Positions 16,298-45,495 of a DNA stretch of 64,000 bases are shown in pieces (position 1 is the stretch's first letter; the number at the start of each line of letters is the position of its first letter). Origin of the DNA: Actinomycetota bacterium (lineage in GTDB: Bacteria > Actinomycetota > Thermoleophilia > Gaiellales > Gaiellaceae); assembly GCA_013816245.1 (NCBI GenBank), contig JACDEU010000004.1, forward strand, positions 1 to 64,000, written 5' to 3'. The notes under the pieces are model-generated. The model searched no databases. It was given only the letters and a program-made list of their open reading frames with translations, and had not been told where the DNA came from. A program made the translations under genes and the position numbers.

Positions 16298-17719
16298 TCA
16301 GTCGCGCAGCTTCGCGCGCAGCAGCTCGTTGACGATCTTCGGATCGGCCCTGCCGCGCGTCTTCTTCATCACCTGGCCGACGAAGAAGCCGAGCAGTCCC
16401 TGCTTGCCACCCTTGTATGCCGCGACCTGCCCCGGATTGTCGGCGAGGATCCGCACCACGAGCGGCTCGAGCTCGGCGGTGTCCGCGACGAGCGCATCGC
16501 CGAGATACGTTTCGGCGCGGAACTGGGGGTCGCCGCTCTCGGTGAGCGCCCGGGTGAAGGTCTCGCGCGGGATCGTCGCGCGTGCGGCGATCAGCTTGCC
16601 GAGCTCGGTGCCGTCGACCGCCGCTGGGTCGACTCCCGTCGCGACGAAGTCGTTCATGAGGACATTCGAGGCGGCCTTCGCATCCACGCCGTTCAGCGCA
16701 ACCTGTTCGTACAAGGCAGCGAGCGCGGCCGAGCCGTTGAGCACTTCCGCGTCGTAGTACGACAGCTCGTACTCCCGTTCGAAGCGGCGAATCCGTGAGC
16801 CCGGCAGTTCGGGGACTTCGATCCGTAACCGCTCGACGAGCTCGGTGGACGGATCGAGCGGAACGAGGTCCGGCTCGGGAAAGTAGCGATAGTCATCGGC
16901 CTCCTCCTTCCGGCGCCGCGCGGTGACGAGGTCCGACTTCACCTCGTAGTCGAGCGTCTCCTGCACGACCTCGCCTCCGGACTCCCACATCTCTATCTGC
17001 CGCCGGAGCTCCGCCTCGATGCCGCGCGCGATGTGGTTGAAGGAGTTCATGTTCTTCAGCTCGGTGCGCGTCCGATAACCCTGCTCCCCCACCTCGCGCA
17101 CGGAGACGTTCGCGTCTGCGCGCAGTGTTCCCTTTTCCATCTCCGCGTCGGAGACGCCAAGCTCGACGATCGTCTGGCGCAAGAGCTGCAGGAAGCGCTT
17201 GGCCTGGTCGGCGGACCGGATGTCGGGCTGGGTCACGATCTCGACCAGCGGCGTACCACCACGGTTGAAGTCGACGTTGGAGTGGGCGGAGCCGACGATA
17301 CGACCGGTTGCTCCCCCGACATGGATCGTCTTCGCCGCATCCTCTTCGAGGTGCGCGCGAACGATGCCGATTTCGGTGTCGCCGCCCGGGCCCGGGACGA
17401 CGAACGAGCCGTCGACGCAGAGTGGCTCGTCGTACTGGGAGATCTGGTAGCCCTTGGGATTGTCCGGATAGAAGTAGTTCTTGCGGTGAAAGACCGCATG
17501 CTCGGCGATCCGGCAGTTCAGCGCATGGCCGAGCTTGATCGTCCACTCGACTGCGGTCTCGTTCGGGACGGGGAGCGCGCCGGGGAACGCGAGGCAGACC
17601 GGGCACGTGCGGGTGTTCGGCTCGCCGCCGTAACCGGCCTCGCAGCTGCAGAACATCTTGGTGCGTGTTTTGAGCTGGACGTGGATCTCCAGACCGATGA
17701 CGGGCTCCCACTCAGGCAT
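16298..17719 (-). CDS. gatB: Asp-tRNA(Asn)/Glu-tRNA(Gln) amidotransferase subunit B
   Basis: A 473-residue GatB, the kinase-like, tRNA-binding subunit that phosphorylates misacylated Glu/Asp-tRNA so it can be amidated. It opens with EPVIGLEIHVQLKTRTKMFC, keeps the zinc-type cysteines of CSCEAGYGGEPNTRTCPVC, and has FHRKNYFYPDNPKGYQISQY, HSNVDFNRGGTPL and DYRYFPEPDL. The YqeY-like tail domain (about 325-473) ends with KKTRGRADPKIVNELL. ATG 17719 is chosen because family homology starts there; it overlaps the preceding small gene by 8 bases. Confidence 0.97.
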   Translation of the reverse strand: MPEWEPVIGLEIHVQLKTRTKMFCSCEAGYGGEPNTRTCPVCLAFPGALPVPNETAVEWTIKLGHALNCRIAEHAVFHRKNYFYPDNPKGYQISQYDEPLCVDGSFVVPGPGGDTEIGIVRAHLEEDAAKTIHVGGATGRIVGSAHSNVDFNRGGTPLVEIVTQPDIRSADQAKRFLQLLRQTIVELGVSDAEMEKGTLRADANVSVREVGEQGYRTRTELKNMNSFNHIARGIEAELRRQIEMWESGGEVVQETLDYEVKSDLVTARRRKEEADDYRYFPEPDLVPLDPSTELVERLRIEVPELPGSRIRRFEREYELSYYDAEVLNGSAALAALYEQVALNGVDAKAASNVLMNDFVATGVDPAAVDGTELGKLIAARATIPRETFTRALTESGDPQFRAETYLGDALVADTAELEPLVVRILADNPGQVAAYKGGKQGLLGFFVGQVMKKTRGRADPKIVNELLRAKLRD

Positions 17720-39213: not shown

Positions 39214-40206
39214 TTGAAGCCACGCCCGCTTCCCGCGGGCGGGACGATCGGCGTCGCTGCGGCGTCGAGCCCGTTCGAGGAACGGTCAGAGATCGACCGG
39301 AGCGTGCGCTGGTACGAGGAGCGCGGCTACCGCGTCAAGCTCGCCGACGGTGTCTACGCCCGTGACGATTTCGTCGCCGGCGACGCCGAAGCACGAGCAC
39401 GTGACGTCAACGCCCTGTTCGCCGACCCGGACGTAGACCTCGTTCAGCTGCTGCGCGGCGGTTACGGCGCCTCACAGGTCGTCCCGCATCTCGACTTCGA
39501 CCTGATCGGGGACAACCCGAAGCCGCTCGTCGGCTACTCCGACGTGACCGCACTCCACGTGGCGATTCGCCAGCGCACGGGCCTCGTCACCTTCTACGGG
39601 CCCGGCTTCACCGGCATGGGGAGCTCGAAGCGCGGCGACTGGTCGAAAGAACGATTCCTGCGTGCCGTCGGTGACCCGGAGCAGCTCGGGGAAATTCCGC
39701 CGCGGCCCGACGACCCATACGTCGGCGCCATCGGTGGCGGCAGGGCGAGCGCTCCCCTCGTCGGCGGCTGCCTCTGGCTCTTGCGTGAGACTCTCGCAAC
39801 GCCGTGGGAGGTCGACCTCGACGACGCGATCCTGTTCTTCGAAGACGTGCACTGCCCTCCGTGGCACGTCGACGGGATGCTCACGCAGCTACGGAACGCA
39901 GGCAAGCTCAATCGGATCAAAGGGGTCGCGATCGGTGAGATGTACAAGTGCGAGGAGTGGCGGCAGCCCGAGCCGTGGCTGCGAAGCCGCTCGATGGAAG
40001 ACGTGTTCGAACATCACCTCGGACCGCTCGACGTGCCGGTCGTGCACAACCTCCCGCTCGGACACGGAGATCATCTCTGCACGATTCCACTCGGCGTCAC
40101 TGCAACGATCGACGCCGACGCGCACACGCTCGTGATCGAGGAATCTGCGCTTAACGCTAGGCGCGAACGATCCCGGCGCGAGCAGGCCCCAGCCGCATCC
40201 CGATAA
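39214..40206 (+). CDS. LD-carboxypeptidase (S66 family)
   Basis: A 330-residue serine peptidase of the LdcA/MccF family. It begins with LPAGGTIGVAAASSPFEERS. The nucleophile Ser lies in LVGYSDVTALH, Glu in AILFFEDVHCPPWHVDG and His in LPLGHGDHLCTIPLG, giving the Ser-Glu-His triad. It removes D-Ala from muropeptide tetrapeptides in wall recycling or detoxifies acyl-nucleotides. TTG 39214 is the apparent start. The 3' end overlaps the convergent MFS gene by 50 bases. Confidence 0.92.
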   Translation: MKPRPLPAGGTIGVAAASSPFEERSEIDRSVRWYEERGYRVKLADGVYARDDFVAGDAEARARDVNALFADPDVDLVQLLRGGYGASQVVPHLDFDLIGDNPKPLVGYSDVTALHVAIRQRTGLVTFYGPGFTGMGSSKRGDWSKERFLRAVGDPEQLGEIPPRPDDPYVGAIGGGRASAPLVGGCLWLLRETLATPWEVDLDDAILFFEDVHCPPWHVDGMLTQLRNAGKLNRIKGVAIGEMYKCEEWRQPEPWLRSRSMEDVFEHHLGPLDVPVVHNLPLGHGDHLCTIPLGVTATIDADAHTLVIEESALNARRERSRREQAPAASR

Positions 40207-41824
40207 CCGCCTCCGCCGCCGACAGGCTCGGCCCGAAACCGGTGACGGCGGTGAGAAAGGCGCGCCGGTCGAGCGCAAAGACGGTCGCAGGGGTCTTCGC
40301 CCTGACAGTGGCCGTACGCGGCAGATCGCGCAGCAGAGCAATCTCGCCGAACGAGTCCCCTGGGCCGAGTGTTTGCACGAGCTTGGTGTCGACGTACACC
40401 TCGAGCGTTCCGTCCTTGACCAGGTAGAAGCGGTCACCCGCCTCGCCCTGCCGGATGACGTCGTCGCCGGTCGGGGCCTGGAGTTCCTCCAGGGCCCCCG
40501 CGAGCTGCTCCAGGGTGGCCTCGGGAAGCGGGGCGAAGATCGGGTTCGACTGCAAGAGCTCGAGCCGGTCGCGAGGAACCCGTGACGCCCGGTCCATCTC
40601 GTTGAGCCGCGGCCACGCGGGCACGACGAGAAGCGGCAGGAGTGCTCCGGCCGCGATCAACGCACCTCGCGTTCCGAGCCAGTTCAGCAACAGCGGCGCG
40701 GCCAGCGCGCCGAGGCCGACGGACAGCAGGAACAGGCTCTCCATCACCCCGAAGACCCGCGCGATCACCTCGTCCGGCGCGGCGCGCTGAAGAAGAGTCA
40801 TGCCGGAGACGTCCACGATCGTGTTGCCGATTCCGACGACTCCGAGCAGGACGAGCGCGAAGATCTGATTGGGCCAGATCGCAACAAGCGCGATCGGCAC
40901 GCCCCAGATGAAGATCCCGAGGCCGAAGTCGGCGGCAAGCCGCCCCCGGCCGACGAGCGCGGCGGCTGCCAGCGCTCCGAGCAGGCCGCCGATACCAACG
41001 GCGGAATTGAGGAAGCCGACGCCGGCGTTGCCCGTGTCGAGCAGCTTCAGCGCGATCACGACGATCAGCACGTTCAGCATCCCGTCGACGAAGGTCTGCG
41101 CGGAGAACAGCCCGACGAGCAGGCGCAGCCGGCGCTCCTTCGCAATCGTCCGGAAACCCAGGAGCAGCTCGTCGACGACCGAGCCCGGCTCCGTGACCCC
41201 ACGCTCGACCGCGCCGACCGGATGGACTCCCAGCACGAGGATCGCCGACCCGACGAGAAGAGCGGCGGTCACGATGAAGACCGCTCCAGGGCCCGAAGCC
41301 GCAAGCAGCAGCCCCCCGATCGCCGGGCCCCCGAAGATCCCTATGCTCTCGACCGCGCTGGCGGCAACGTTGGCCGCGGTCAGTTCCTCGGGCGTCCGGG
41401 CGAGCGACGGGACGAGCGCAGCCTGTGCCGGACGGAACGCGGTCGCCGCGATGCCGACCAGGCCGGAGATCACATAGATGACCATCGGGCTTGCGTGAAT
41501 GTAGGCCGCGACGGCCGCTCCGCCGATGAGGAGCGCCCGCGCGAGATCCGAGGCCACCATGACGACCCGCCGGTCGTAACGGTCTCCCAGGAGGGCCGCG
41601 AAAGGCGAGGCGGCCGCGGCCGCGAGCCAGCGGGACATGCCCACGATCCCGACCGCCGTGGCTCCCCCCTGCTCATAGGCATAGACGACGATGGCGATCG
41701 CGTAAGCCCACGTACCTAGAAGAGATCCCGCCCAGGCCAGCTGGATGCGGCGAAGCCCGGGATTGGCGAAAACCTCCCGAAACGCCCGACCGGACTCAGC
41801 CAAATGCCCCAGAAATCGCCGCAC
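40157..41824 (-). CDS. MFS transporter fused to a cyclic-nucleotide-binding domain
   Basis: A 555-residue two-part protein. Residues about 1-420 form an MFS_3-type transporter with the typical opening FANPGLRRIQLAWAGSLLG and loop LLGDRYDRRVVMVASDLAR. Residues about 435-545 form a cyclic-nucleotide-binding domain with GDRFYLVKDGTLEVYVD and the phosphate-binding cassette GDSFGEIALLRDLPRTATV (Glu and Arg present). Transport might therefore respond to cAMP or cGMP. The substrate is unknown. It is divergent from the tandem-repeat protein gene. Confidence 0.93.
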   Translation of the reverse strand: MRRFLGHLAESGRAFREVFANPGLRRIQLAWAGSLLGTWAYAIAIVVYAYEQGGATAVGIVGMSRWLAAAAASPFAALLGDRYDRRVVMVASDLARALLIGGAAVAAYIHASPMVIYVISGLVGIAATAFRPAQAALVPSLARTPEELTAANVAASAVESIGIFGGPAIGGLLLAASGPGAVFIVTAALLVGSAILVLGVHPVGAVERGVTEPGSVVDELLLGFRTIAKERRLRLLVGLFSAQTFVDGMLNVLIVVIALKLLDTGNAGVGFLNSAVGIGGLLGALAAAALVGRGRLAADFGLGIFIWGVPIALVAIWPNQIFALVLLGVVGIGNTIVDVSGMTLLQRAAPDEVIARVFGVMESLFLLSVGLGALAAPLLLNWLGTRGALIAAGALLPLLVVPAWPRLNEMDRASRVPRDRLELLQSNPIFAPLPEATLEQLAGALEELQAPTGDDVIRQGEAGDRFYLVKDGTLEVYVDTKLVQTLGPGDSFGEIALLRDLPRTATVRAKTPATVFALDRRAFLTAVTGFGPSLSAAEAVIGMRLGPARAGIVRA

Positions 41825-41947
41825 CGGGAGCAGGATCGCAGCCCGAGTTGCGTATTTGAAGGGCAGCAGGGAAGATTCCTGCGAGGTGAGCCGTCTAGTA
41901 CCTGAAAACCGGCATCCCGCCGAGTCCCTTCTAGAAGGAGGATTTCA

Positions 41948-42316
41948 ATGTCCGACGAGCGCTTCGAGCAGGATGAGGCCAAGGACGACGAGGACGTCGA
42001 GGCCCACAAGAAGCATTCGCAGGCGCTGAATCTCGAGGCCACGACTGAGGCCGGCGACGATTCAGACGACGTCGAGGCCCACAAGAAGCATTCGCAGGCG
42101 CTGAATCTCGAGGCCACGACTGAGGCCGGCGACGATTCAGACGACGTCGAAGCACATCGCAAGCATTCGATGGCCCGCAACACCGCGGCCAGCGACGACT
42201 CCGACGATTCAGACGACGTCGAAGCACATCGCAAGCATTCGATGGCCCGCAACACCGCGGCCAGCGACGACTCCGACGATTCAGACGACGTGGAAGCACA
42301 TCGCAAGCACGCCTAG
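41948..42316 (+). CDS. Acidic tandem-repeat protein (DVEAHxKH repeats)
   Basis: A 122-residue, very hydrophilic protein built of a 16-residue leader and five DVEAHxKH units. Two 25-residue units read DVEAHKKHSQALNLEATTEA plus an acidic end; two 24-residue units read DVEAHRKHSMARNTAASDDS plus an acidic end; the last stops at DVEAHRKHA. No signal peptide or membrane segment is present. ATG follows GAAGGAGG, an excellent ribosome binding site, and a strong terminator follows, so it is a well-expressed single gene. No family is recognised. Metal binding by His/Asp or a multi-core peptide precursor are possibilities. Confidence 0.9.
   Translation: MSDERFEQDEAKDDEDVEAHKKHSQALNLEATTEAGDDSDDVEAHKKHSQALNLEATTEAGDDSDDVEAHRKHSMARNTAASDDSDDSDDVEAHRKHSMARNTAASDDSDDSDDVEAHRKHA
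41993..42316 (+). repeat. In-frame tandem DNA repeats, 75 and 72 bp
   Basis: A 75-base unit is repeated exactly (41993-42067, 42068-42142), followed by a 72-base unit repeated exactly (42143-42214, 42215-42286) and a truncated third copy (42287-42316). Perfect identity at silent positions implies very recent expansion or ongoing gene conversion. Copy number may vary between strains. Confidence 0.95.
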
Positions 42317-42334
42317 CGTGCGTTCCATGCGTTG

Positions 42335-42363
42335 GCGAAGCCCGGGCATTGCCCGGGCTTCGC
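42335..42363 (+). terminator. Rho-independent terminator after the repeat protein gene
   Basis: GCGAAGCCCGGGC and GCCCGGGCTTCGC form a perfect 13-bp stem with an ATT loop, followed by GCTTTCT. It lies 18 bases after the stop codon of the repeat protein gene and just before the convergent GAF gene end. Confidence 0.85.
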
Positions 42364-42368
42364 GCTTT

Positions 42369-43007
42369 CTAGAGGAGTTTCTCCAGCTCTGCGAGCAGCC
42401 GGAGCGCGGCCGCACGCGATCCGTCCTCGTCGTCTCGCTGGTGCTCGAGGGCCTCTGCCACCCGGGCGACGACTGCGAGGTCACCTTCCCCCGCAAGGGC
42501 CGCCTGGGCGCGCCGCGCCCGCTGCAGGAGGTCGAGCGCGATCGCGGCCTGGTTCGCGAACAGCCCGAGCAGGTCCATCTCGGCGAGCGTGAACCTCGTG
42601 TCCTGCGGCCGGTCGAGCACCTCGAGGACGCCGAGCGCGCGCTCGTCGTGGAGGAGCGGCACGGCCATCAGACCCTTCGGGACGAACCCGGTGCTCTCCG
42701 CGGTCTCCCGGGAAAAGCGCGGATCCTTGAGGACGTCCTCGATCACGAGTGGTTGCCGGCTGACGAGGACGAAGCCGGCGATCCCAGTGCTGGACGGGAA
42801 CCGCTTGCCGATCAGCGACTCCGAAGCCTCGTCCGCCGCGGCCTCGAAGACGAGCTCGTCCGCCTCCTCGTCGAGGAGCAGGATCGAAGAAGCCTTGGCC
42901 TTGAAGATCGCCCGCGCCACGTCGACGATCGACTGCAGCAGGGCGCGGAACTGGTCTTCCGAGCCGAGCACGCCGGCGGCGACGGCCGCACGAAAGTCGT
43001 CGCTCAC
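42369..43007 (-). CDS. GAF-domain protein
   Basis: About 212 residues, mostly one GAF domain (about 20-165): FRALLQSIVDVARAIFKAKA, SSILLLDEEADELVFEAA, GIAGFVLVSRQPLVIEDV, and the C-terminal AEMDLLGLFANQAAIALDLL helix. A helical tail of about 45 residues follows. GAF domains bind small ligands or cyclic nucleotides; no output domain is attached. GTG 43007 overlaps the subtilase stop as GTGA, so the two proteins are made together. Confidence 0.9.
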   Translation of the reverse strand: MSDDFRAAVAAGVLGSEDQFRALLQSIVDVARAIFKAKASSILLLDEEADELVFEAAADEASESLIGKRFPSSTGIAGFVLVSRQPLVIEDVLKDPRFSRETAESTGFVPKGLMAVPLLHDERALGVLEVLDRPQDTRFTLAEMDLLGLFANQAAIALDLLQRARRAQAALAGEGDLAVVARVAEALEHQRDDEDGSRAAALRLLAELEKLL

Positions 43008-43825
43008 TTGCCGCTCCCCACGTTCGTCGCCGCGAGGTAGAGAACGCTCTTCAGCTGGAAGGGAGTCAGCTCCGGGTGCTTCGACAGCACGAGCGCAGCG
43101 ATGCCCGCGATGTGCGGGGTGGCGAAGCTGTTGCCCGTGCAGACGAGGCGGCCGCCGCCGTTCCAGGCCACCTCGACGTCGAGCCCCCGGGCGAAAAACT
43201 CGACCGGCGGGGCAGGGTTGTAGTAGTACTCGAGCGGATCGGAGCCCTCGTGGCTTCCAACGGAGATGACGCTCGAGAAGCGCCAGGGATAGCTCTCGAC
43301 TGGCATGTTGTGTGCGGAGGCCACGAGCATCGTCCGGCGGAAGTATGCGGTGTCCGCGAGCTCGTGCAAGAGGGATGCGAACTTCTGCTTCGTCGTCGAG
43401 AGGCTCATGTTGATGACGTCGTACCCCTGCTCGATCGCCCACTTGAGGCCTTCCAGCAATACAGCGCCGCTGCCCGTGTACCCCGCACCGAGAACACGGA
43501 CGCTCACGAGCTCGCACTCCGGTGCCAGCGACCGGATCACACCGGCGCAGGCAGTTCCGTGGCCGCAGAGATCGCCCTCGGTGTCCTCGTCGTCGATGAT
43601 CACCTCGTTGCCCTCGATGGAGATGGCGACCGACTGCTGGACCTCGCCCACCATGGGGTGGCCGCCCTCGATGCCGCTGTCGAGCACGCATACCCGGGCG
43701 CCGGCGCCCGTCGCTTCGCCCCACGCCCACTCCCGCGTGATCTCCCCTGGCCACTCTTCGGGTAGCTTGATGCTCTCGACCGACGCGGCGGGGAGGCTCC
43801 AGGCGGGAAGTTCTTCTTCGGACAC
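43004..43825 (-). CDS. Subtilisin-like (S8) serine peptidase without signal peptide
   Basis: A 273-residue subtilase with the intact triad Asp49 (VCVLDSGIEGGHP), His89 (DLCGHGTACAG) and Ser233 (TGNSFATPHIAG), and the oxyanion Asn173 in SAHNMP. No signal peptide or inhibitory propeptide is seen, and the catalytic core starts within 45 residues, so it probably acts in the cytoplasm. It is translationally coupled to the GAF protein and lies close to the repeat protein gene. Small intracellular subtilases of this type sometimes mature peptides, which is a hypothesis here. Confidence 0.92.
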   Translation of the reverse strand: MSEEELPAWSLPAASVESIKLPEEWPGEITREWAWGEATGAGARVCVLDSGIEGGHPMVGEVQQSVAISIEGNEVIIDDEDTEGDLCGHGTACAGVIRSLAPECELVSVRVLGAGYTGSGAVLLEGLKWAIEQGYDVINMSLSTTKQKFASLLHELADTAYFRRTMLVASAHNMPVESYPWRFSSVISVGSHEGSDPLEYYYNPAPPVEFFARGLDVEVAWNGGGRLVCTGNSFATPHIAGIAALVLSKHPELTPFQLKSVLYLAATNVGSGK

Positions 43826-43881
43826 TGCGTCAGCCTAACGAGGTCAGGGTCCGGGAAGACAAGGCGCTCGTCGCCCGTCCT

Positions 43882-44079
43882 GTGGGCGAAGTGTTTCCGC
43901 AATCGCCGCAAGAGATCGCTCGAGACCGCCACGCCGACCTCCTTCGCGAGGCGACCCGGCAGCAATCGGCAGCGATTATCCGTGAGGAGGCGGACCGGCC
44001 GGTACGGGTGCATGCGAGAGCCCTTTGGACTGCCGCGGGAAGGGTCGTCACGCGGCGTCTGGCGGTTCCGGCCGCCTGA
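43882..44079 (+). CDS. Possible small basic protein
   Basis: An open frame of up to 65 codons in the 255-base gap between the subtilase and cyclodeaminase genes. The product, with EIARDRHADLLREATRQQSA and a basic tail, resembles small Arg-rich proteins (ARERHRDLLREAE type) that I recall being frequent in actinobacteria. Starts could be GTG 43882 or GTG 43891; neither has a strong ribosome binding site. Rather weak evidence. Confidence 0.4.
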   Translation: MGEVFPQSPQEIARDRHADLLREATRQQSAAIIREEADRPVRVHARALWTAAGRVVTRRLAVPAA

Positions 44080-44080
44080 T

Positions 44081-44659
44081 CTACTCCCGGGCCGCCCGCG
44101 CCTCTTCTGCGGCGCGGGCGGCGTTTTCTGCCAGCCTCGCCGCCTCGCGAACCCGCTCGTCGCCCGCAGAGGCCGTCAGGTTCACACCCACCAGCTCGGC
44201 CGCTGCACTCGCGGCGGCCGCCGCCAGGAGGCCGGCCGTGACGGCGTCGGCGTGGAACGCGGGATCGCCGTTCCTGGCCACGACGACCGACAGTTCGGCG
44301 ACGTCCGCGGCGATCCGGGCGATCTGAAGCGGTGGCTCGGCCGCGCGGGCGAAGGCGCGCCCGAGCGCGAAGTCCCGGCGCTCCCCGGCCTCACCGCCGT
44401 CGTCCTCGCGCGCTCGGAGCGCTGCCTCATACTGCTCCGCGTCCGCCTGGGCGAGAGGAGCCGCGCGATCGAGCAGGGACTCGGCCTGCGCAGCGATCCC
44501 CCGGCCTTCGGGCCACGCGGGGGAGGTTCTGGCGACCTTGGCGAGGAGTGCGGCAGCGACCGCTGTCACGAGCGCTGCGACGGAGCCGCCACCCGGGGTT
44601 CGTCCCTCGGCGGCGACGTCCTCGAGAAATTCCCGCAGCGACCTGTCCAGGAAGGTCAT
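44081..44659 (-). CDS. fchA: Cyclodeaminase/cyclohydrolase family protein
   Basis: A 192-residue all-helical protein of the formiminotetrahydrofolate cyclodeaminase/methenyl-tetrahydrofolate cyclohydrolase family. It shows SLREFLEDVAAEGRTPGGGS followed by VAALVTAVAAALLAKVA and the later IARIAADVAELSVVVARNGD. FchA converts methenyl- to formyl-tetrahydrofolate. With FolD also in the window its need is unclear, and a side role is possible. Confidence 0.88.
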   Translation of the reverse strand: MTFLDRSLREFLEDVAAEGRTPGGGSVAALVTAVAAALLAKVARTSPAWPEGRGIAAQAESLLDRAAPLAQADAEQYEAALRAREDDGGEAGERRDFALGRAFARAAEPPLQIARIAADVAELSVVVARNGDPAFHADAVTAGLLAAAAASAAAELVGVNLTASAGDERVREAARLAENAARAAEEARAARE

Positions 44660-44680: not shown

Positions 44681-44935
44681 CTACTTCGACTTGAAGCGAA
44701 CCCGCAGCTCTTCGACGACCGCCGGACCGCGCTCGTAGCCCTCGGCCTCGAGCGCGGCCTCGAGATCGGCGACGAGACGGGCACGAAACTCGGCATCGGC
44801 CTCCGCGCGGGCAACGATCTGGTCGAGCCCGGCCTTCGCCAGCGGCAGCTCTTGCGCTGCGCGCACCCATGCCTCGGGCGCCGGGGGCAAAGCCCGGATC
44901 AGGCGCGCGAGGCGCTCTTCGTCGAAAGCGGTCAT
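44681..44935 (-). CDS. Small protein coupled to an ECF sigma factor
   Basis: An 84-residue helical protein read from the ATG at 44935 that overlaps the sigma factor stop as ATGA. The sequence contains FDEERLARLIRALPPAPEAW, VRAAQELPLAKAGLDQIV and a C-terminal RLVADLEAALEAEGYERGP. It has no zinc motif or membrane helix and so is not a standard anti-sigma factor. Its coupling suggests it binds or modulates the sigma factor. No family recognised. Confidence 0.8.
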   Translation of the reverse strand: MTAFDEERLARLIRALPPAPEAWVRAAQELPLAKAGLDQIVARAEADAEFRARLVADLEAALEAEGYERGPAVVEELRVRFKSK

Positions 44936-45495
44936 CGTGAACCAGACGTGGGAGCGGCCTCGTTTCTTCCCTCGAGGAGCTCGCGGAGGCGTGCCAGGCA
45001 TCTCGAGATCCGGCTGGCGATCGTGCCGGCGGGCAGGTCGAGGGCTTCGCCGATCGTCTTGTAGCTCTCGTCGCGGGCGAAGAACCGGTCGAGGACCTCG
45101 CGGCAGTGCCCGGGAGTCGCGGCAAGCGCCTCGTGGACCGCGAGCGCCTCTTCGAGCTGGTTCAACGTCTCCTCGCTGCCCGCGAGCTCGAGCTCCTCGT
45201 CGGTCGTCGGTCGCTCGCGGGAGGCGGCGCGCAGGCGGTCGATGCAAAGCCGGCGTGTGAGCTGGGCGAGCCAGGGGCGCACGGCGGCATCGTCGCGCAA
45301 GCCATCGAGATGCTGATACGCGCGCGCGAACACTTCCTGGAACACGTCCTCGGCATCGGCGTCCGGAAGCCGGAAGGCCTGGACGGAGATCGCATAGACG
45401 TAACGGGAGAACCGCTCGACGAGCTCGGCCCAGGCCTGCTGGTCGCCGGTACGGCAACGCGCGACGAGCTCACTGTCGGTCAAGGCCTGCGCCAT
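44932..45495 (-). CDS. ECF-type RNA polymerase sigma factor
   Basis: A 187-residue ECF sigma factor. Region 2 contains DADAEDVFQEVFARAYQHLD and VRPWLAQLTRRLCIDRLRA; region 4 contains VLDRFFARDESYKTIGEALD and LPAGTIASRISRCLARLRELL. It is followed by a small coupled gene instead of a normal anti-sigma gene. It lies 29 bases after the last gene of the tad locus on the same strand, so it may be part of that transcript. Confidence 0.95.
   Translation of the reverse strand: MAQALTDSELVARCRTGDQQAWAELVERFSRYVYAISVQAFRLPDADAEDVFQEVFARAYQHLDGLRDDAAVRPWLAQLTRRLCIDRLRAASRERPTTDEELELAGSEETLNQLEEALAVHEALAATPGHCREVLDRFFARDESYKTIGEALDLPAGTIASRISRCLARLRELLEGRNEAAPTSGSR

Follow-up and report, generated by a model that had tools for sequence, protein, structure and literature searches.

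A five-tag repeat gene and its neighbours

Within the 64,000-nucleotide stretch of DNA analysed here (the window) lies a small gene whose product carries five copies of the sequence DVEAH, hereafter the tag (Table 1). The first two repeat units are identical at 75 of 75 bp and the third and fourth at 72 of 72 bp, Tandem Repeats Finder scores the two arrays at 100% and 99%, respectively, and the fifth unit is truncated. The initial annotation's description of an acidic ORF of five DVEAH repeats in two exact families of 75 and 72 bp is thus borne out by the ORF, the repeat finder and the unit identities. The peptide contains 38 Asp/Glu against 14 Lys/Arg, together with 10 His and no Cys, and its gene is present as a single copy in its own genome. 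An AlphaFold (AF2) model shows no fold (pLDDT 57.6, pTM 0.17), and searches of Pfam, NCBIfam (up to E 10) and PDB with the peptide returned no meaningful match. An Rfam scan of positions 40000-44500 found no RNA, and a literature search on the tag sequence and on 'aroma-sacti' found no relevant paper.

Table 1. Coordinates of the repeat-peptide gene, its control signals and neighbouring genes in the window
Feature	Coordinates	Strand	Evidence and remarks
MFS transporter with C-terminal cyclic-nucleotide-binding domain (MFS-cNMP), 555 aa	40157..41824	-	Pfam MFS_1 1.7e-28, cNMP_binding 2.1e-19; divergent from peptide gene
ECF-sigma-type promoter, GGGAAGATT-N14-CGTCTAGT	41869..41899	+	Strict form in 36/44 loci, spacing always 14
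Shine-Dalgarno sequence AAGGAGG	41935..41941	+	Sequence, just 5' of ATG
Peptide ORF	41948..42316	+	122 aa, ATG start, five DVEAH tags, acidic; syntenic relatives in ~46 loci
75-bp unit pair, identical, DVEAHKKHSQALNLEATTEAGDDSD	41993..42142	+	Tandem Repeats Finder and sequence
72-bp unit pair, identical, DVEAHRKHSMARNTAASDDSDDSD	42143..42286	+	Tandem Repeats Finder and sequence
Short terminal unit DVEAHRKHA and stop	42287..42316	+	Sequence
13-bp GC-rich hairpin between convergent peptide and GAF genes	42335..42363	.	Fold z -4.0
GAF-domain protein	42369..43007	-	Pfam GAF 5.1e-20; start overlaps S8 stop (GTGA)
S8 subtilase	43004..43825	-	Pfam 7e-28; alignment; AF2 model
NHLP-clan-like helical protein, 84 aa	44681..44935	-	Directly downstream of sigma gene; sub-cutoff PF14407 4.6e-8, NF038399 6.4e-7
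ECF sigma factor	44932..45495	-	TIGR02937 1.1e-23, above cut-off; near locus in most genomes

The S8 subtilase appears to be an intact enzyme, with catalytic residues D49, H89 and S233 and the oxyanion residue N173 invariant in 37 aligned sequences and an AF2 model (pLDDT 89.8) that has the subtilisin fold; no signal peptide was seen on inspection by eye. The S8 and GAF genes are translationally coupled. The NCBIfam models nearest to the subtilase, all scoring below their cut-offs, include the peptide-maturation protease QhpE and PatA/PatG. The MFS-cNMP protein has a match, also below cut-off, to the NCBIfam 'ryptide export' model, and we regard it as a candidate exporter of peptides. A Pfam scan of eight neighbouring proteins in the window found no modifying enzyme, whether of the radical SAM, the YcaO or another type.

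A widespread family of tag peptides at S8 loci

We collected relatives by anchoring the search on the S8 protease of the locus (E<=1e-40), which is present in 51 of the 299 genomes of the class and yielded 55 S8 loci that could be oriented, including that of the window. A script found a tag peptide in 44 of these and inspection by eye added two more (L048 and L078). Six loci without a tag peptide (L043, L046, L068, L072, L077 and L082) are cut by a contig end, so that the search for small DVEAH proteins and their neighbours suggested by the initial annotation places a tag peptide in 46 of the 49 uncut S8 loci, at the same position and mostly with two to four tags per ORF. The remaining three (L079, L080 and L081) are true exceptions, and their S8 genes are divergent (52-60% identity). 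Relatives within the same genus and order are likewise small acidic ORFs with two to four tags. The constant partners of the peptide gene are MFS-cNMP, GAF and S8, with an ECF sigma gene in most loci, and the NHLP-clan-like gene, whose product is RiPP-leader-like, follows the sigma gene in most loci that have one. Wherever the contig extends far enough, MFS-cNMP accompanies the peptide gene, and the two remain divergent even in rearranged loci; in L040 and L074, the peptide, S8 and GAF genes are co-oriented.

A single-tag DNA pattern was dropped as too common, its six other matches in the same genome lying in ORFs unlike the repeat peptide, and we therefore used a two-tag pattern, which is independent of the S8 anchor. 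This pattern occurs in 23 of the 299 class genomes, 21 of which are S8-positive; the remaining two have the peptide gene next to GAF, and there the contig breaks off before S8 in one and within a partial S8 gene in the other. Fisher's test on the raw table gives 2.5e-16, a value that overstates the evidence since the genomes are related and not independent. Two-tag ORFs number one in the window, compared with none in 100 codon-shuffled windows and none in 558 kb of non-Gaiellales loci.

Across the class the tag consensus is [DE][VF]E[AGL]H. Among 118 tags from 44 loci, the His is present in all and the Glu in 116, the looser positions holding V, F or I and then A, G or L. Entropy over these copies is 0-1.1 bits at tag positions versus 2.4-3.8 bits in the flanks, which are acidic on the N-terminal side and variable after the tag; the pattern is that of a multi-core precursor, in which a conserved recognition sequence punctuates variable repeated units. 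The spacers between tags are hypervariable between genera and are often built from micro-repeats of three to five residues, such as GPTAE, AENV, GNTD, GQTA, GTEP, SPRQG, SPPVG and GKESV. The suggestion that the repeat is rapidly expanding fits these data, with copies identical at the DNA level here and relatives having mostly two to four tags with different spacers.

The conservation bears on two simpler explanations. That the ORF is spurious or decaying and without function is hardly credible: slippage could yield two exact repeat families and a low-complexity spacer, but the tag is kept in dozens of genomes with many synonymous spellings (16 different DNA spellings of DVEAH among the 118 tags), behind a Shine-Dalgarno sequence and a conserved dedicated promoter, and this conservation largely refutes the idea. 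A protein buffering metals or protons through His and acidic repeats, as the initial annotation entertained, is very improbable. The 10 His and 38 Asp/Glu of the window copy and the few RH-rich relatives are in keeping with it; however, the 49 peptides scored are without exception acidic and free of Cys, 20 of them have His in the tags alone, and buffering would leave the constant protease and MFS-cNMP partners unexplained. We rejected metal buffering as a general role, conserved His or Cys ligands beyond the tag being absent from the 49 peptides. The view that the peptide fits no known family holds insofar as Pfam and NCBIfam give no meaningful match, but by tag and synteny it is no orphan and is a member of a widespread, as yet unnamed family.

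Tags also occur in other settings. In a genome of the same genus, a 310-aa ORF combines two DVEAH tags with a hydrophobic segment and repeats of the PIAMVSDAASSGPV type, and lies away from the S8 locus (L163, G007:C45, 2727-3656, minus strand). In another genome that has an S8 locus, a second tag peptide adjoins a second MFS-cNMP gene (L164, G247:C18), with neither S8 nor GAF within that 16-kb stretch. In L166 (G171, S8 near 17460), EVEAH occurs within the N-terminal segment of S8 itself, possibly as a self-tag or by coincidence.

Control signals of the peptide gene

ECF-type promoters have the form GGAA ... CGTC, and the site before the peptide gene has this look and is near-invariant. Its consensus upstream of the first tag is GGGAAGAT[T]-N14-[CG]GTC; most of the eight loci lacking the strict form have a variant of one or two bases or are cut by the contig, and the window site is the only perfect match of its pattern in its own genome. 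The linked ECF sigma factor probably reads this promoter and is a candidate regulator. A second promoter-like site (44971-44941) precedes the NHLP-clan-like gene; it overlaps the last part of the sigma coding region, and a transcript starting from it would lack a leader, which makes its role as a promoter doubtful.

The initial annotation took a good ribosome binding site and a terminator as signs of expression. The former is clearly present, as a strong AAGGAGG just before the ATG. As for the latter, a strong GC-rich hairpin of 13 bp does lie 3' of the stop (-35.5 kcal/mol over a 67-nt stretch, z -4.0), but a consensus terminator scan did not call it because it lacks a T-run; we think it likely to be a bidirectional terminator without a T-run, serving the peptide and GAF genes. 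The peptide gene is presumably expressed.

The S8-GAF module outside the Gaiellales

A scan of 84,980 species genomes revealed S8 relatives at about 55-67% in Streptomyces, Nonomuraea, Microbispora and others. All 47 non-Gaiellales S8 loci have the GAF gene, and 43 have a class III cyclase-AAA (cyclase-ATPase) gene; MFS-cNMP is found in only one, as against 78 of 88 loci of the Gaiellales-type set (in which some genomes are counted twice), where the cyclase is rare. An aroma-sacti-type small protein is encoded in 34 of the 47, and its leader mostly ends in a [DE]V[EQ][AG][HQ]-like tag (EVEGQ, EVQAH, EVEGH, DVEAH or the like), after which comes a short core. Two of these loci (L150 and L159) encode StsA-related sactipeptide precursors scoring above the curated cut-off (138.1 and 134.6 bits versus 75), with W..PEVEVH directly before the Cys core and EVEVH as the tag. 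Leaders, modifying enzymes and transporters differ between the Gaiellales and Streptomyces-type loci, and their common denominator is S8-GAF plus the tag.

In StsA, the RRE protein StsC binds WxxP, and this binding tolerates changes at the two residues that follow, E(-11) and M(-10) (PMC12710340). By our alignment these two residues probably correspond to the start of the tag, which would then be free for another reader, for example the protease.

Further tag-bearing peptides were seen near loci of this kind. Near S8-cyclase loci of Kibdelosporangium and Streptomyces (L121, L154 and L162) are small peptides that contain Cys and bear EVEAH or EVEGH in their leaders, with no NCBIfam match where tested. 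In a different class, a four-tag peptide, DVEGHARQREDMTGDDVKGHKMPREDM..., is encoded from 8757 onward on the plus strand (L176, G489:C43); two class III cyclase-AAA genes adjoin it, and the contig runs out soon after.

Radical SAM genes accompany the S8-GAF relatives in some loci, and together with the NHLP-clan-like protein at the window locus they lend some weight to the notion that the repeat peptide is a RiPP precursor modified in trans, its tags being leader elements for an enzyme encoded elsewhere in the genome and S8 then trimming the modified units. We consider this distinctly unlikely, given the absence of Cys from 49 peptides, of a modifying enzyme among the eight neighbours scanned, and of common modifiable residues in the spacers.

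A predicted substrate of the S8 protease

Since the tag and S8-GAF are what the two kinds of loci share, leaders, modifying enzymes and transporters being different, S8 (or else GAF) is the simplest candidate for reading the tag. We propose, with about an even chance of being right, that the peptide is a multi-unit substrate of the neighbouring S8 protease, yielding short peptides. An ECF sigma factor, probably the linked one, would switch the gene on, and its product would be a dedicated, disordered multi-unit substrate of the cytosolic protease, which would recognise each [DE][VF]E[AGL]H tag and cut there or close by, so that several short peptides of variable sequence are set free. Export of these peptides would fall to the divergent MFS transporter, presumably gated by cyclic nucleotides, and the GAF partner would tune the protease. 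The multi-core precursor suggested by the initial annotation gains from the conserved S8 neighbour, whose family accompanies RiPP precursors with the same leader-end tag, although the processing itself is a prediction from sequence.

What follows the tags sits less well with a substrate. A cut right after the tag would leave some last products of only two to four residues (KR, RMK or RKHA), too short for a typical product, and the stretches after the tag have no common chemistry (poly-RH, SPPIG, GNTD, AENV) that would suit one receptor or one modification. This is the strongest objection to the substrate reading, and it favours the main rival, a disordered multivalent regulator, with no precursor role, whose tags bind in the S8 active site or to the GAF protein to inhibit, scaffold or localise, and whose spacers are free linkers expanding by slippage. 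Conservation limited to the tag and acidity, the unfolded AF2 model, and an S8 without an obvious classical inhibitory prodomain agree with such a regulator. We nevertheless think it somewhat unlikely, as this type of tag also ends the leaders of sactipeptide-type precursors encoded next to the same family of proteases, a setting in which processing is the more natural role, and as the micro-repeats directly after the tag look selected in many species.

Extending the substrate reading, we tentatively suggest, as possible rather than probable, a peptide-production system not described before: a cytosolic subtilase, under the control of an ECF sigma factor and of parts linked to cyclic nucleotides, would cut multi-copy tag precursors into short, unmodified, species-specific signalling peptides, and Streptomyces relatives would reuse the same tag-protease module for modified peptides. 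The locus offers a concrete and testable tag-protease pair, common to actinomycete sactipeptide-type clusters and to a variant without modification in uncultured Gaiellaceae from soil. Should the tag prove to be where S8 recognises its substrate, this would give such clusters a rule for their maturation protease and a means of searching for precursors, and might reveal a new class of hypervariable signal peptides in bacteria.

Comparison with known systems

The cyanobactin precursor PatE is a multi-core RiPP precursor cut by the S8 proteases PatA and PatG. This system and the window locus both have repeated units of variable sequence set between copies of a conserved recognition sequence, and both include an S8 protease; the window differs in having no cyclase or heterocyclase domain in the neighbours scanned, and its S8 falls far under the PatA model cut-off (31.5 vs 421). 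QhpE (NF049966), the subtilase that matures quinohemoprotein amine dehydrogenase, is also an S8 protease with a partner-peptide role of the kind proposed here, but the window S8 scores 101.5 bits against a cut-off of 165, and no Qhp partners were found in the neighbouring proteins scanned. The Os1348/Franean1_4349 NHLP-clan proteins (NF038399, PF14407) are resembled, below cut-off, by the small protein after the sigma gene, which is separate from the repeat peptide.

Closer are the StsA-related sactipeptide and aroma-sacti precursors (NF045559 and NF045560), which adjoin the same S8-GAF pair and whose leaders carry at their end, ahead of a short variable core, a tag of the [DE]V[EQ][AG][HQ] type. 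The window locus has both this type of tag and the S8-GAF partner, an association found here and not a published criterion. These precursors have a helical leader of about 50 aa, usually a single tag, and Cys cores in the StsA types; the window peptide has no such leader and no Cys, carries five tags, and does not match NF045559 or NF045560 in NCBIfam searches up to E 10. A Cys core and a radical SAM maturase, which mark the StsA and aroma-sacti systems, are absent from the 49 peptides and from the scanned neighbours, respectively. Although the peptide resembles a multi-core precursor, it cannot be classed as a RiPP: the scan of its neighbours gave no modifying enzyme, and the processing is a prediction. 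The most fitting description is a form of the S8-GAF peptide module that has several tags but no leader, with the NCBI aroma-sacti and StsA-related models as its nearest named relatives.
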